DNA from: Acidithiobacillus acidisediminis
Lineage (GTDB): Bacteria; Pseudomonadota; Gammaproteobacteria; Acidithiobacillales; Acidithiobacillaceae
Length of the DNA stretch: 64,000 nucleotides
Direction of reading: 5' to 3'
Assembly (NCBI RefSeq): GCF_023277115.1
Contig: NZ_JALQCS010000001.1
Coordinates: 2,350,001 to 2,414,000 of the forward strand
The position numbers were made by a program, and so were the translations under genes. Position 1 is the stretch's first letter, and the number at the start of each line of letters is the position of its first letter. The notes beneath the pieces were generated by a model. The model was given only the letters and a program-made list of their open reading frames with translations. It was not told where the DNA came from and searched no databases. Positions 44,098 to 49,201 of this stretch are shown here, in pieces.

Positions 44098-44601
44098 TCA
44101 ACGCAACAGGCCCTTGAGATCTTTGAGCATGAGGAAGAGATGGTAAGGATCGGTGGGGCTCGGCTCGAATTCCCACCTTTCGTACCAGTAACGTGCAGCA
44201 TCGTCCTTGGCATGTACCAGCAGGCAGCGAATGCCAGCGATCTCGGCGGCTTGGGCGGTACGCAACAGCGCATCCTTGAGCAAGGCTCGACCCAGACCTT
44301 TGCGCTGATGCGCTCCGTCCACCGCAAGCCGGGCCAGAATCATGACCGGAACCGGATGACACCCAAGCCCCTTCACAACCCTTGACGGCGCCGCCATCGG
44401 ATCGGCGCTGCCGACCGCGAGACTGTAAAAGCCGACCACCACTTCACCAGTACAACACACGTAGGTCTGCGCGCTGTTGGCCCTCTGGTTGACGAGCGCG
44501 TAGCGTTGCAGGAATTGATTCAGGGCAGCATCGCCACAATCGAAAGCCTCAACCTGATCAGACGCAGCCAACTTGCGAACTGGTGCGTAGCCATTGCTCA
44601 A
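44098..44601 (-). CDS. GNAT acetyltransferase toxin (TacT/AtaT-like)
   Basis: A 167-residue GCN5-type acetyltransferase: LNQFLQRYALVNQRAN near the start, AVGSADP, LARLAVDGAHQRKGLGRALL as acetyl-CoA-binding motif A, and YWYERWEFEPSP at the C-terminus. This pattern is that of toxins that acetylate charged tRNAs. Its start overlaps the stop of the DUF1778 gene upstream, the standard antitoxin-toxin order. The acetyl-CoA site looks complete, so it may be active. Confidence 0.9.
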   Translation of the reverse strand: MSNGYAPVRKLAASDQVEAFDCGDAALNQFLQRYALVNQRANSAQTYVCCTGEVVVGFYSLAVGSADPMAAPSRVVKGLGCHPVPVMILARLAVDGAHQRKGLGRALLKDALLRTAQAAEIAGIRCLLVHAKDDAARYWYERWEFEPSPTDPYHLFLMLKDLKGLLR

Positions 44602-44870
44602 TCCAGCAGTCCAGGCTCGTTCAACAATTTCTTCAAACGCGGCTTGCTTTGTACTGGCCTATCCAGCGCTTCTTGGAATGCCTGCCATTGCGTCTCATCA
44701 AGCACGAACTGACGGCGACTTGCCAGCGCCTGCTGTGCCGCCGTCACACCGGCGTCGAGCAAGAACTCGCTCACATTTTTGTGGCAGGCACGCGCAGCTT
44801 CCTGCAGCAGTTGTTTGACCAGCGTGCTTGCACGAACGTCAATACGCTCAGTCTTGGAAATATTCACCAT
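44598..44870 (-). CDS. DUF1778 ribbon-helix-helix antitoxin
   Basis: A 90-residue protein beginning SKTERIDVRAS, the DNA-binding beta strand of the DUF1778 group, followed by two helices. The C-terminal tail (FQEALDRPVQSKPRLKKLL) is the toxin-binding region. It should repress its own operon and neutralise the GNAT toxin. A likely operator lies in the promoter upstream. Confidence 0.9.
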   Translation of the reverse strand: MVNISKTERIDVRASTLVKQLLQEAARACHKNVSEFLLDAGVTAAQQALASRRQFVLDETQWQAFQEALDRPVQSKPRLKKLLNEPGLLD

Positions 44871-44907
44871 ATTCTCGGCGCCTCCCGGACAGACCTTGGA
44901 TATCTGT

Positions 44908-44937
44908 ATTGTAGGTGTCCTGATATCGTCCTGACAA
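44908..44937 (-). promoter_or_regulatory. Promoter and operator of the DUF1778/GNAT operon
   Basis: On the reverse strand TTGTCA (44937-44932) and TACAAT (44913-44908) are 18 bases apart. Two direct copies of TCAGGAC, 11 bases apart, lie within and beside the spacer (forward GTCCTGA at 44917-44923 and 44928-44934). One-helical-turn spacing suits a ribbon-helix-helix repressor. Confidence 0.5.
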
Positions 44938-45049
44938 CAAGGGGGCTTTTTTATGCCGCCGCCCGCCCCTCGAATAAGTTGACCAGAGAACTGTCGATTT
45001 GGCTGACCTCACCCACCAGGGTGCCAACGATTGCTGTGTAGAGGGCCAA

Positions 45050-45086
45050 GTTTCAATCCGCGCCCGGCGATTAGGCCGGGCGATAC
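45050..45086. CRISPR. Solitary CRISPR-like repeat (no array)
   Basis: A 37-base unit begins GTTTCAATCCGCGCCCGGC, continues with GATTAG and ends GCCGGGCGATAC. On the reverse strand it ends in GGATTGAAAC, the common 3' end of many type I repeats, with an internal GCCCGGC/GCCGGGC stem. Only one copy is visible, so there is no array. It may be a remnant; the length does not fit a type I-E repeat (28-29 bases). Confidence 0.45.
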
Positions 45087-45174
45087 GCCCAGTGCTGAAA
45101 TGCAGAAGGCGGTATTGGGTCGACTTCGTTCACAGTGCTAACATCCTCATGAGTCAATCGATTGAGAGTGGAAT

Positions 45175-45438
45175 ATGGCCATCACCCTCGCAGACATCGA
45201 AGCGCAGGCGCTGCAACTGACAACCCGCGAGCGCAGCGAACTCGCCCATCGCCTAATTGTGAGCCTTGAAGGTCCGGTAGAAGATACACCGGAAGCGATT
45301 GCCCAAGCCTGGGACGAGGAAATCGCGCGGCGCGTGGCAGACATGGAAGCAGGACGCACGCAGTGGATACCCGCAGAAGAGGTATTCAAGGAAATCGACA
45401 AAAAGATTGCCGCAGCGCGCAACCGGATTCGCAGATGA
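45175..45438 (+). CDS. Putative addiction-module antitoxin, orphan
   Basis: An 87-residue protein matching the TIGR02574-type addiction-module component: LADIEAQALQLTTRERSELA, then DTPEAIAQAWDEEIARRV and the tail WIPAEEVFKEI. Such proteins normally sit before a RelE/ParE toxin. Here the overlapping downstream frame (ATG at 45435) runs only 31 codons and has no toxin features, so the toxin seems lost. Confidence 0.75.
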   Translation: MAITLADIEAQALQLTTRERSELAHRLIVSLEGPVEDTPEAIAQAWDEEIARRVADMEAGRTQWIPAEEVFKEIDKKIAAARNRIRR

Positions 45439-45577
45439 TTTGCTATGACGGTAGAACTCAAAATAACCCCACTCATCGTACTGTCTCATCTTGCTCGGTA
45501 TTTGGCCTTGCCCAAAGGCAGCAGAATTAGCAGGTCAGAGTCAAGATCTAGATGCTACAATAATAGGGAGATCATTC

Positions 45578-46348
45578 TTGCTACCTGAAGAATTGGAACT
45601 TGAACGCCTAGAGCGCGAGCTATCCTCCATTCGTGATATCGTTGCTGATAAGGAACTGGCATTGGAAACGACTAAATGCGACCTCGCCCGTTTCCGAGCT
45701 TGTTATCAATCAGAAATAGTAAATCTGTATGTGATGATTGATCGGCTTGATGCCATCATTGCAAGGATTGATGCGGGCGAAAATCCTGATGATATAGAAG
45801 CTCAAGCGCGAGCAGAAGAAGCAAAACGTAAGGCTGAAGAATCGGCAAGGGAGGCAGGGGCTAGTTCAGAAGAGATGAAACAGCTATCCGGTCCTCCCAA
45901 AGAACCGACACGAGAGGTTAAGCAGGCGTTTCGCACGGGGGCAAAGATGATGCACCCAGACCTTGCTACCGACCAAACAGAAAAGGAACGACGCCATACC
46001 TTTATGACCAGGTTAAACCTAGCCTATGAGCGGTGTGACTTGGCAACCATCCAGACCATAATTACGGAATTCGGAGAGGACCCTGAAAGTATCAGGGGTG
46101 AAGATGTTGGATCTAGGATGATAAAGGTCATCAGAAAGCTCGCACAGATGCGTCGTCGCATTGATGAGATTAGCGGAGAACTTGAGGCCATCCATGCTGA
46201 TGATTATTATATGCTGATGAAAAAGGTTGAGGAGGCCGATGCGGATGGCGGCGATGCTCTCGCAGATCTTTCTGTGACACTTATGCAGCAAATATCAGAG
46301 CGCAAGATCACTTTAGAAGAGTGGCGCCAGAAGCAGGCCAAATCATGA
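45578..46348 (+). CDS. J-domain-like coiled-coil protein
   Basis: A 256-residue protein. Residues 1-100 are highly charged and likely coiled coil (LELERLERELSSIRDIVADK). Residues about 112-160 hold a J-domain-like helix-loop-helix with MMHPDL, HPD at 126-128, then LNLAYERCDLATI. HPD normally stimulates Hsp70 ATPase. The TTG at 45578 has AGGGAG seven bases upstream; the in-frame ATG at 45491 lacks one. A possible -10 TACAAT lies at 45556-45561. Its stop overlaps the next start (ATGA). Low GC relative to neighbours suggests transfer. Function unknown. Confidence 0.75.
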   Translation: MLPEELELERLERELSSIRDIVADKELALETTKCDLARFRACYQSEIVNLYVMIDRLDAIIARIDAGENPDDIEAQARAEEAKRKAEESAREAGASSEEMKQLSGPPKEPTREVKQAFRTGAKMMHPDLATDQTEKERRHTFMTRLNLAYERCDLATIQTIITEFGEDPESIRGEDVGSRMIKVIRKLAQMRRRIDEISGELEAIHADDYYMLMKKVEEADADGGDALADLSVTLMQQISERKITLEEWRQKQAKS

Positions 46349-46947
46349 ATAGATTATGGATAATTATCGTTTTTGGGTTTGTAGCCTACTTCTGCATTCG
46401 ATACTACCAGAACCGTCGAAAAAAGAAGTTGAAGGTTATGGTTTGTGAACCACCAACACAGCAGAAGATTAACCCCATTGACCAAACGATACAGTTTTTG
46501 AACGCGCGCATTGAAAAAGCTGATTGTATTAGGGCAGAGGCTGAAATTTGGGCGAAGAGATGGGGCGACGCACGAATGCCCGTGATCGACGCCATGAGCG
46601 GAACAGAATTTGAGGACTATCTCGATGGACTTTTCACCGCCATGGGCTATTTGGTAAAGCAGACACCCGCCACAGGTGATTTTGGTGGAGATTTGATCCT
46701 AACCAGAAATGAGCGACGCATCGTTGTGCAAGCCAAGCGTTGGCAAGGAACGGTTGGGGTAGATGCAGTCCAGGAGGCGCTATCAGGAAAATCCTTTTAT
46801 GGCTGCCAAGATGCCTGGGTTGTTACCAACTCCACATTTACAATAAAGGCTAGTGAATTGGCATTCAAGACTGGTGTATCCTTAATAGATCGAAAAGGCC
46901 TTTCAAAAATGATTGGTGACCTTCAAGGCAAGGTGAAACATGACTGA
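46345..46947 (+). CDS. Membrane-anchored Mrr-type restriction endonuclease-like protein
   Basis: A 200-residue protein. Residues 4-20 are one hydrophobic helix followed by RRKKK, which would keep the rest in the cytoplasm. Residues 85-190 form an Mrr_cat PD-(D/E)xK-like domain: GTEFEDYLDGLFTAMGY (Glu90), GDFGGD (Asp116) and VVQAKRW (Gln129, Lys131). Mrr-type nucleases cut modified or foreign DNA. The start overlaps the J-domain gene and its end overlaps the Sel1 gene, so the three are translationally coupled. Confidence 0.82.
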   Translation: MNRLWIIIVFGFVAYFCIRYYQNRRKKKLKVMVCEPPTQQKINPIDQTIQFLNARIEKADCIRAEAEIWAKRWGDARMPVIDAMSGTEFEDYLDGLFTAMGYLVKQTPATGDFGGDLILTRNERRIVVQAKRWQGTVGVDAVQEALSGKSFYGCQDAWVVTNSTFTIKASELAFKTGVSLIDRKGLSKMIGDLQGKVKHD

Positions 46948-48178
46948 CAATAGTATGGTTGTGAAACCGAGTGGAGGCCTAACAACAGATAACAAGACTT
47001 CGACGTTAGCCTCTCGTGGATTGGCGGATTTATATAGACTAAAGGAAGTAGAATCAGAAATTATAATATCTCATCGGCAACTAGATATATGGTATGATGA
47101 AGGTATAAAATATTTCAAGGTAAGGGATTATAATAATTCTATAATATTGCTGCGAAAAGCGGCAGATCTAGGACACATCGGGGCACAATATAGTATTGGA
47201 TACTGTTACGGAAAAGGATTTGGCGTTCCCCAGGATCACGAACAAGCTGTAGCCTGGTACCGCAAGGCAGCTGAGCAGGGACATTGCTGGGGTCAAAGAG
47301 AGCTCGGTAACTGCTATAGCCTTGGGCAGGGCGTATCTCAGAACCACGAACTGGCAGTAGTTTGGTACCGAAGGGCAGCAGAGCAAGGAGACGTGAATGC
47401 GCAATTGTATCTGGGAATTTCTTTTGAAACTGGTGAAGGCGTGCTTCAGGATCATGAGCAAGCTGTAGCCTGGTACCGAATGGCGGCAGAGCAAGGAGAT
47501 TATCACGGGCAATTCAGGCTGGGGGGTTGCTATGATTTGGGTCTAGGTGTACCTCAGGACTGCGAACAGGCTGTAGTCTGGTACCGCAAGGCAGCTGAGC
47601 AGGGACATGCGGGCGCGCAATATAATCTAGGTTTGTGCTATGCGGGTGGAGAAGGCGTTCCTCAGAACCACGAACTGGCAGTAGTTTGGTACCGAAGGGC
47701 AGCAGAGCAAGGAGACGCGAATGCGCAATTGTATTTGGGACGTTCTTTTGCAAGTGGTAAAGGCGTACCTCAGGACTACGAACAAGCTGTAGTCTGGTAC
47801 CGCAAGGCAGCAGAGCAGGGATACGCGGTGGCGCAAAATCATCTAGGTGTGTGCTATGCGAGTGGAGAAGGCGTTCCCCAGGATTATGAGCAGGCTGTTG
47901 CTTGGTTTCGAAAGTCGGCAGAGCAAGGAGATGAGGTCGGACAAATGAGTCTGGGGTATTGCCATCATTATGGTCTAGGCGTACCTCAGGACTACGAAAA
48001 AGCTGTAGTCTGGTACCGCAAGGCAGCTGAGCAGGGATACGCGGAGGCGCAATATGATCTAGGCGTGTGCTATGCGAATGGAAAAGGCGTTCCTCAGGAC
48101 GACGAGCAGGCCGAAGCTTGGTACCGCAAGGCGGCAGAGCAGGGACATGTCGCGGCGCAAAGCAATCTCAACGGTTGA
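46940..48178 (+). CDS. Sel1-repeat protein
   Basis: A 412-residue protein with an unmatched N-terminal 80-90 residues and then about nine Sel1/TPR-like repeats of 36 residues (for example GVPQDYEQAVVWYRKAAEQG). No signal peptide is seen, so it probably acts in the cytoplasm as a protein-protein scaffold. The ATG overlaps the end of the nuclease gene. It is the last gene of the three-gene operon. Sel1 proteins occur as partners in signalling and defence loci, but its own role is unknown. Confidence 0.85.
   Translation: MTDNSMVVKPSGGLTTDNKTSTLASRGLADLYRLKEVESEIIISHRQLDIWYDEGIKYFKVRDYNNSIILLRKAADLGHIGAQYSIGYCYGKGFGVPQDHEQAVAWYRKAAEQGHCWGQRELGNCYSLGQGVSQNHELAVVWYRRAAEQGDVNAQLYLGISFETGEGVLQDHEQAVAWYRMAAEQGDYHGQFRLGGCYDLGLGVPQDCEQAVVWYRKAAEQGHAGAQYNLGLCYAGGEGVPQNHELAVVWYRRAAEQGDANAQLYLGRSFASGKGVPQDYEQAVVWYRKAAEQGYAVAQNHLGVCYASGEGVPQDYEQAVAWFRKSAEQGDEVGQMSLGYCHHYGLGVPQDYEKAVVWYRKAAEQGYAEAQYDLGVCYANGKGVPQDDEQAEAWYRKAAEQGHVAAQSNLNG
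47215..48170 (+). repeat. Tandem 108-base repeats coding for Sel1 units
   Basis: Nucleotide units of 108 bases recur about nine times within the Sel1 gene. A 57-base segment starting CTCAGAACCACGAACTGGCA is identical at 47337-47393 and 47661-47717, exactly three units (324 bases) apart, which suggests a recent block duplication. Confidence 0.85.
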
Positions 48179-48368
48179 GACAAGGACGCCCCTGCAACAA
48201 TCAAAATGGCGGCTGAGATAACCTGACTATTCCTCGGACTACGCGCCATTGCCAAGACATAACCCTGATGGGATGGGCCCACGCACCGAATGTCTTCTTC
48301 CTATATATTTATGATACAGATTCTTCCAAAGTAAATCTCTTAGTGTCAGCCTATTAAGGAAGGAGTTA

Positions 48369-48396
48369 TTGACAAAATAATGCCCTATTCTATCAA
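48369..48396 (+). promoter_or_regulatory. Candidate promoter of the small AT-rich gene
   Basis: TTGACA at 48369-48374 and TATCAA at 48391-48396 are 16 bases apart, about 44 bases before the start at 48440. The rest of the 261-base gap from 48179 is AT-rich and shows no gene. Confidence 0.35.
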
Positions 48397-48439
48397 CCAG
48401 AGATATATTCCAACCTATTTAATAAAGAGGAAATATACT

Positions 48440-48679
48440 ATGTCAAAACATTCCATCACTCTACAGAGAAGCGGAATTAATGGATTCTTGTCAACACAAA
48501 CAATTGGAACAGATGCGCTTAACGCTCTACACACGATTTCAATTATAAATGACGTACAAATCGTTCGCGAGTCAAATGACCAAGTCGAACTAACCTATTC
48601 ATTAGTCGGCGACGGTAACCCTATAAATATAGGCGATATTTTGGACAAGTTCGGTCTTGCCCGCGTCGATACCGAATAG
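48440..48679 (+). CDS. Small hypothetical protein
   Basis: A 79-residue protein I do not recognise, starting MSKHSITLQRSGINGF and rich in Asn, Ile and Asp, with no membrane helix. The ATG at 48440 has AGAGG nine bases before it; an in-frame ATG 20 codons upstream is less likely. Base composition is AT-rich and unlike the housekeeping genes. It converges with the remains of a PIN toxin gene. Confidence 0.5.
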   Translation: MSKHSITLQRSGINGFLSTQTIGTDALNALHTISIINDVQIVRESNDQVELTYSLVGDGNPINIGDILDKFGLARVDTE

Positions 48680-48716
48680 TTTTGGCTTCCCGGAATCTAG
48701 GCGCCTTCAGTGAAGC

Positions 48717-48785
48717 CACATCCATTCGCTCAACACGAGCCAGTGCAATCAATGGCCCGGTGTCGGCGACGATCAGCCTATTCAA
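48717..48785 (-). pseudogene. Truncated PIN-domain (DUF3368-like) toxin
   Basis: A TTG overlapping the antitoxin stop opens a frame reading LNRLIVADTGPLIALARVER. That is the N-terminus of DUF3368/PIN toxins with the first metal-binding Asp. After about 23 residues the similarity ends and the sequence runs into unrelated DNA, so more than 100 residues are missing. No active nuclease can result. Confidence 0.6.
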
Positions 48786-49101
48786 AATCAGCCAGCTCTG
48801 CTTCGAGCTCACCGGGTTCGGGCCGCGCTATCGCAATGTTCAGGCTCCCCAGCAAGTCGATAAACCCGGAGTGGCTCATGCCCGCCAGCTTGACCGCCTG
48901 CCCGAGACTGATCCGGGATTCTTCGAACAGCCGAACCGCCAGCGCCGTATTGACCCCACTTTGCAGCAGGCGATCGTCGAAAGGCACTGCCACAAACACC
49001 GGCTGCCCATGCTTGGTGACAATGGAAAGCTTGCCCGCCTCGGCCTCGCGCACCAGCTCGCCGGTGCGGTCGCGCAGGTCGCGGATGGTGAAGGTTTGCA
49101 T
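48778..49101 (-). CDS. Phd/YefM-UPF0175 fusion antitoxin
   Basis: A 107-residue protein. Residues 1-45 are a Phd/YefM antitoxin fold (MQTFTIRDLRDRTGELVREA then PVFVAVPFDD). Residues 55-95 match UPF0175, with the helix-turn-helix-like SLGQAVKLAGMSHSGFIDLL. The ATG at 49101 sits after GGAGG. The usual downstream PIN toxin is truncated, leaving this antitoxin without a partner. Confidence 0.78.
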   Translation of the reverse strand: MQTFTIRDLRDRTGELVREAEAGKLSIVTKHGQPVFVAVPFDDRLLQSGVNTALAVRLFEESRISLGQAVKLAGMSHSGFIDLLGSLNIAIARPEPGELEAELADFE

Positions 49102-49201
49102 GACACCTCCTTGAGAATATACAAACACTTATGGGCATATTAGACTTTCTGTAGACCAGCGCCAAGCTCCGGGTCTGATATGGACTGGATCAGACACAAG
49201 C

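Follow-up and report, generated by a model that had tools for sequence, protein, structure and literature searches.

Three overlapping plus-strand genes at 45578-48178 of the window, the 64,000-nucleotide stretch of the Acidithiobacillus acidisediminis genome analysed here, encode a J protein, an Mrr nuclease and a Sel1-repeat protein. This operon type is real and recurrent. Sequence comparison suggests that its constant core is a J protein and a partner with a shared N-terminal tag, nuclease use being optional, and the strongest argument for this came from six g432 species. We tentatively read the set, with somewhat less than even confidence, as a modular intracellular conflict system, most likely directed against phages or plasmids, in which the tagged proteins would sense, the J protein would couple them to DnaK and the nuclease would act.

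Linkage of the J gene with its partners

Gene neighbourhoods were compared at the 20 J loci with a readable neighbour (the window, L003, L035, L042, L063-L069, L070, L072, L073, L100-L103, L105 and L106). Left out were L071 and L104, whose partner was lost at contig ends (in L104 a Sel1 open reading frame does touch J), together with L006, L037, L074 and L107, in which the J copy is broken. A tagged or Sel1 protein was encoded on the same strand as J in 20/20 of these loci, and the original prediction, made from the letters of the window, had named co-occurrence in other genomes as a test; the set does recur. The partner touched J in 18 of the 20 (overlap or gap of at most 8 bases, with the family start assumed; the J start in L073 is uncertain). 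The two exceptions to direct contact were L003, with a gap of 219 bases, and the window, where Mrr lies in between.

Gene order varied among the loci. It was J-Mrr-Sel1 in the window and Mrr-tagged-J in Paraburkholderia and at the remaining Mrr loci, with extra genes interrupting the latter order in L067 and L069; the Mrr-free orders were Sel1-J in the g432 genomes and J-Sel1 in Granulicella. Linkage that survives gene reordering is a usual sign of joint function, and the view that the three genes behave as a unit is supported.

Mrr was present at only half of the readable loci (10/20: the window, L003, L065, L066, L067, where it is shortened, L068, L069, L070, L100 and L105), so it was rejected as a constant core and is treated as an exchangeable nuclease module. 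The six g432 species had J and Sel1 beside the same downstream ATPase gene, and Mrr of the window type was not found genome-wide in any of the six (one of them, G1355, is 79% complete).

Co-occurrence was examined in 38 whole genomes, 19 with J and 19 J-negative, the negatives being hand-picked from unmatched rows and not random. The tag profile matched 18/19 J genomes versus 2/19 J-negative genomes (Fisher p = 2e-7), a comparison that is partly circular because the profile rows came from J-positive loci. The J genome that it missed, G1351, has just a J fragment, and the J-negative matches were in G1252 (two leucine-rich repeat (LRR) proteins) and G1167 (E = 0.0155, probably chance). The full-length Mrr type (at least 150 bits, a cut chosen after the scores were seen) was found in 9/19 versus 0/19 (Fisher p = 1e-3), and under the limit of the search itself, where a match to the catalytic part alone is enough, the counts were 10/19 and 1/19 (Fisher p = 3e-3). 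These genomes held 10 intact Mrr genes of the window type, nine directly beside a tagged gene and one at 1.2 kb.

Distant J-type proteins were examined at 23 loci (13 other genomes, G017, G020, G840, G1001 and six places in the order of G1050). A tagged or Mrr neighbour was found at none of the 23, within 6.5-13 kb at 16 loci or 2-4 kb at seven, L040 included, and these proteins were therefore left outside the system.

The proteins of the operon

The features of the operon are as follows.

45578..46348, plus strand: J protein, 256 residues, with an N-terminal helical/coiled-coil part, a short J domain and a long C-terminal helix (helices as in a poor structure model)
46345..46947, plus strand: Mrr-type PD-(D/E)xK nuclease, 200 residues, with a hydrophobic segment at residues 4-22, a conserved linker and a catalytic domain at residues 81-190
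46940..48178, plus strand: Sel1-repeat protein with N-terminal partner tag, 412 residues
47000..47023, plus strand: shared tag core, residues 21-28 (STLASRGL) of the Sel1 protein, located with a profile built without the window row
47222..48149, plus strand: tandem 108-bp units encoding the Sel1 repeats (DNA period)
45565..45571, plus strand: AGGGAGA, probable ribosome-binding site lying six bases before the TTG start (by eye)

The TTG start of the J gene gives MLPEE, as in 19 of the 22 J proteins compared. The HPD tripeptide, which in J domains sits between helices II and III, is residues 126-128 (45953-45961) and is kept in 20 of the 22, the window included. The Pfam DnaJ match (E = 4.4e-4) was under the curated cut-off and covered model positions 11-51 of 63. 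When a profile of the J family was compared with the PDB, 19 sequences were matched at E ≤ 0.1, auxilin first, the others including DnaJ/Hsp40 homologues, dnj-12, SIS1 and HscB; 18 of the 19 are J-protein entries by name (SIS1 counted among them), and one is named just 'HCG3 gene'. SIS1 and 2ej7 we take to be J proteins. Because the family profile matches J-protein entries, the J-domain call is firmer than Pfam alone would make it, and the HPD-bearing, coiled-coil, J-like protein of the original prediction was borne out. A single-sequence structure model was poor (mean predicted local distance difference test score of 52), with the flanks helical in that model. In a tree of the J proteins, with the G1246 protein trimmed to its first 290 residues, one of 19 inner branches reached the tool's own support mark, and Granulicella and G1246 formed long branches. 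The Paraburkholderia J protein clustered with that of G1240 (92/97, below the same mark).

The 200-residue window nuclease matched Pfam Mrr_cat at 1.4e-28 with the domain complete, and catalytic Asp116, Gln129 and Lys131 were invariant in 11/11 aligned Mrr rows. Its N-terminus has a hydrophobic stretch (residues 4-22, Kyte-Doolittle mean 1.56, borderline) followed by lysines. Among the 11 rows, a transmembrane-like segment was seen only in the window (1.56) and Paraburkholderia (2.40) proteins; the remaining nine have short, less hydrophobic N-termini (-0.80 to 1.10), amphipathic in four of them (moment 0.50-0.75). By these sequence measures a true membrane anchor is not common among the Mrr relatives, and membrane contact of some kind may be common. 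The nuclease of the original prediction thus stood, but its membrane tether is borderline and confined to two of the proteins aligned. A PDB search with the Mrr protein alone returned nothing useful.

Several candidate identities for the nuclease were rejected. With PADLOC models, the protein matched the C-terminus of Zorya ZorD (2.6e-18) and that of mREase_IV (1.8e-6), but only the nuclease end of these models was covered. Zorya type I ZorD was set aside because the 200-residue protein matched just positions 940-1061 of 1071 and has no SNF2 helicase plus Mrr architecture, and a type IV (Mrr) restriction enzyme because the match leaves out the N-terminal recognition part, spanning model positions 404-528 (of 544) or 174-290 (of 317). 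An inactive NA-iREase was ruled out, as the catalytic residues are kept.

At one J locus without Mrr, a different nuclease-like domain is fused to J. The G1246 J protein has 434 residues, of which 292-425 match the end of the PADLOC candidate defence protein PDC-S68 (2.2e-39), and no separate Mrr of the window type was found in that genome. Its C-terminal domain, without a Pfam match, is presumably another PD-(D/E)xK domain, judging from its motifs. L068 has a further open reading frame with an IECKR motif after J, for which Pfam, NCBIfam and PADLOC returned no hit. No NCBIfam family was assigned to five of the other parts.

The Sel1 protein matched Pfam Sel1 (5.4e-115) in 10 stretches of tandem 36-residue repeats. 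The repeat scaffold of the original prediction is thereby retained, and is now seen as one of a class of tagged proteins with other domains elsewhere. The partners have about 30 N-terminal residues in common, with a core at the end, x-L-x-(G/A/S)-R-G-L-x-x-I/L, for which the consensus is xLxGRGLxAI. This tag precedes unrelated domains: Sel1 repeats, LRRs (L073, in two tandem genes, and L141), a small helical-looking protein (twice in L069, and L138), a short cysteine-containing protein (L140) and, in L003, a duplicated domain that no Pfam model matched above threshold. G1276 has a four-gene chain of Mrr, tagged small protein, tagged Sel1 and J. The tag profile comprised 16 rows, all from J-positive loci. 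Leave-one-out tests were carried out among 6634 open reading frames for 12 of these (all but three rows from L069 and the second from L073), and 11 of the 12 were recovered (window E = 7e-4, LRR protein 1.4e-4, Paraburkholderia 0.0058). A plasmid search with a 60-residue tag peptide returned nothing useful. The tagged small protein at L138:206-874 matched, at 43.7% over residues 137-203, an LPD38-annotated protein of a Parabacteroides plasmid.

Distribution of relatives

Relatives were found on two plasmids, a megaplasmid of Paraburkholderia and a plasmid of Granulicella, and also in one order belonging to the class of the window; the plasmid records are those of Paraburkholderia phymatum (J 44.5%) and Granulicella tundricola. 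The J set was not found in any of the seven same-genus genomes searched, and 56 relatives besides the window's own genome yielded just two distant J-type proteins (G017 and G020). A class-wide search of 369 genomes found G1050 and two distant matches (G840 and G1001). In the order of G1050, which may be one of methane oxidisers, 15/151 genomes matched, nine with the close type, G1246 diverged and five distant. In its family 16/221 matched and in a second family 2/38, both samples overlapping that of the order. The family of G377 (398 genomes) gave one copy, which was broken. Neither the J protein nor its first alignment gave useful hits in scans of genome contigs. Larger J-type proteins of about 330-500 residues make up a wider family in genomes of the window's phylum (L007, L008 and L022-L034), with neither a tagged nor an Mrr neighbour in the stretches covered.

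Decayed J genes were found in G798, G1351 and G1276. The broken J copy in G798 (L037) has transposon genes next to it, together with two genes that by eye look dynamin-like or GTPase-like, and in G1351 (L107:4080-8194) a gene that by eye looks helicase-like lies between a shortened Mrr and the J fragment. Integrase-, AlpA- or primase-like genes adjoin several loci, again by eye and not by profile.

DNA context of the operon in the window

The J and Mrr genes overlap by 4 bp and the Mrr and Sel1 genes by 8 bp, and the GC (guanine plus cytosine) content is 0.478 in the bin 46001-48000 compared with 0.545-0.658 in the remaining 31 bins of the window. Both the overlaps and the low GC had been correctly predicted, as had toxin-antitoxin genes around the operon, which occur in three places: a TacA-like antitoxin and GNAT pair upstream at 44098-44870, an addiction-module component at 45175-45438 and a Phd/UPF0175 antitoxin-like gene at 48778-49128. 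The predicted remnants of clustered regularly interspaced short palindromic repeats (CRISPR) were reduced to one solitary repeat at 45050-45086, which matches Rfam CRISPR-DR9 with 45.3 bits and precedes the operon by about 490 bases, and no further remnants were seen nearby. Elsewhere the same genome has an array (C1:1870679-1874035) in which 47 repeats resemble the solitary one, most of them with 84% identity. Orphan CRISPR repeats can have regulatory roles. In a promoter and terminator scan, no plus-strand promoter-like site was found upstream of J and no plus-strand terminator-like site in 44900-48700.

A second J and Mrr copy, broken by insertion sequences (IS), maps to roughly 248-250 kb on the contig that also carries the window. 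It consists of two pieces, part of J and part of Mrr (DNA identity 96.6 and 98.5%), and the Sel1 gene had no match there. This copy (L006:6068-10296) is flanked by two same-strand copies of a gene for a 346-residue transposase-like protein and split by a third element.

Comparison with known systems

We rate the composition of the gene set as new, as each named system compared fails a defining feature; the rating concerns composition and not an established function. No description of the J, Mrr and tagged-partner set was found in the open-access literature (preprints and most subscription papers were outside this scope). As originally predicted, no nameable defence system was matched, the named systems matching single domains only.

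bNACHT25 needs DnaJ with HPD/DnaK function for phage sensing and then degrades DNA (PMC12169576). The likeness lies in a J-protein chaperone function (HPD, DnaK stimulation) that serves phage sensing upstream of DNA degradation, which in our case is a prediction; host DnaJ and a NACHT ATPase sensor act there (PMC12169576), whereas the J protein is encoded in the operon here. No NACHT match was found in the three operon proteins, just NA-iREase1, an Mrr relative. GAP1-N2 GTPase conflict systems include HSP70, GrpE and DnaJ-fused proteins (PMC7159879). They resemble the operon in proposed Hsp70/J machinery, with TPR-type repeats (PMC7159879). They differ from it in that the window J protein stands alone and the operon has a nuclease. 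Neither GAP1-N2 nor HSP70 was matched in the three overlapping proteins, the scan being confined to these.

AbiU2 offers a Sel1-repeat gene beside a proposed abortive-infection effector in an operon, but that effector is a HEPN protein, and the passage concerned names neither J nor Mrr (PMC3710099). A dynamin-like protein adjacent to BDLP1 shares a DnaJ-like domain in a bacterial multi-gene membrane system (PMC6104087), but no dynamin match was found among the three operon proteins. LPD38 polyvalent proteins (PMC5512222) are matched in part by the tagged small protein of L138, where the domain is solo behind a partner tag.

Discussion

The conflict-system reading starts from the gene linkage, the tag on unrelated domains, the retained HPD and catalytic residues, the exchange of modules and the distant lineages involved. 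The patchy distribution also counts for it, and bNACHT25 provides a precedent. We infer tag docking, DnaK coupling, nuclease activity, the trigger and a defence purpose from sequence, and phage sensing is likewise a reasonable inference. The tagged proteins, which carry Sel1 repeats here and LRR or other domains elsewhere, would be interchangeable sensors or recruiters, docked through their shared N-terminus to J or to the nuclease. J would pass the sensor complex to host DnaK; that complex would change when the chaperone is occupied or a foreign protein is bound, and the nuclease, either Mrr or the nuclease-like domain fused to J, would then be freed to cut DNA. A more specific form, which is possible but which we hold to be doubtful, is a bacterial immune system of a new class, in which a portable docking tag plugs unrelated recognition domains (Sel1, LRR and others) into one J hub, Hsp70 occupancy switching a separate or fused nuclease and foreign proteins being read via chaperones.

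Several observations weigh against the conflict-system reading. HPD is lost in two J relatives, L070:968-1732 and L106:8176-8913 (FPD and SPD), in which the tagged Sel1 neighbour is retained. The nuclease-free J and Sel1 pair in the six g432 species resembles a resident cellular function, which argues for caution and is the strongest point against a purely defensive role. Tagged genes occur without a detected J in G1252 and in J-free stretches of G1240 and G1245, and the Granulicella tag, missed among the 6634 open reading frames by the profile built without it, was assigned by eye only. The J and tagged parts match PADLOC models weakly, through repeats and coiled coils. No homologues were found in phage records or viral contigs, and therefore the link to mobile elements rests on neighbouring genes.

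The g432 species would also fit a chaperone-assisted stress or protein-quality system, in which DnaK would receive selected clients from J and tagged scaffolds, with the nuclease as an accessory that certain lineages use, for example, to clear damaged DNA. J being the constant part agrees with this, as does the general role of Sel1 and LRR proteins as scaffolds for interactions. Housekeeping functions do not usually show the patchy presence seen here (16/221 family genomes), partner domains that are swapped or in tandem, broken copies or nuclease modules of two kinds, and we consider this explanation unlikely. A common N-terminal tag on variable C-terminal domains resembles the layout of delivered effectors, which raises the idea that the tag is an export or chaperone-binding signal, the Sel1 and LRR proteins effectors and J their dedicated chaperone. 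The intracellular-type Mrr nuclease in 10/20 loci speaks against this, no secretion genes were noticed near the loci and no long hydrophobic stretch in the tags (both by eye only), and we regard the idea as improbable.

Much the same low probability is given to a membrane-located nuclease controlling DNA entry, in which incoming DNA would be cut by an anchored Mrr that J and Sel1 help to assemble. The hydrophobic N-termini of the window and Paraburkholderia Mrr proteins and the amphipathic ones of four others are in its favour. This DNA-entry complex, put forward in the original prediction, is weakened, and is rejected as the core function, because the anchor is not conserved, nine other Mrr rows being without it; half of the readable J loci are also without Mrr. 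Selfish linkage, with J, Mrr and Sel1 as cargo of a decaying mobile cassette and without joint function, would account for the IS-broken second copy, the decayed J genes in G798, G1351 and G1276 and the toxin-antitoxin genes nearby. Conserved catalytic and HPD residues, the common tag and overlapping start and stop codons that persist through reordering make this a very improbable explanation.

If the conflict-system reading is true, bacteria would possess a co-chaperone dedicated to an immune nuclease, much as host DnaJ serves bNACHT25. Diverse recognition domains would then be joined to one effector by a simple rule, an N-terminal tag of about 30 residues. Three small genes would be enough for a direct test of the idea of chaperones as guards, and the tag profile alone could reveal new sensor domains.

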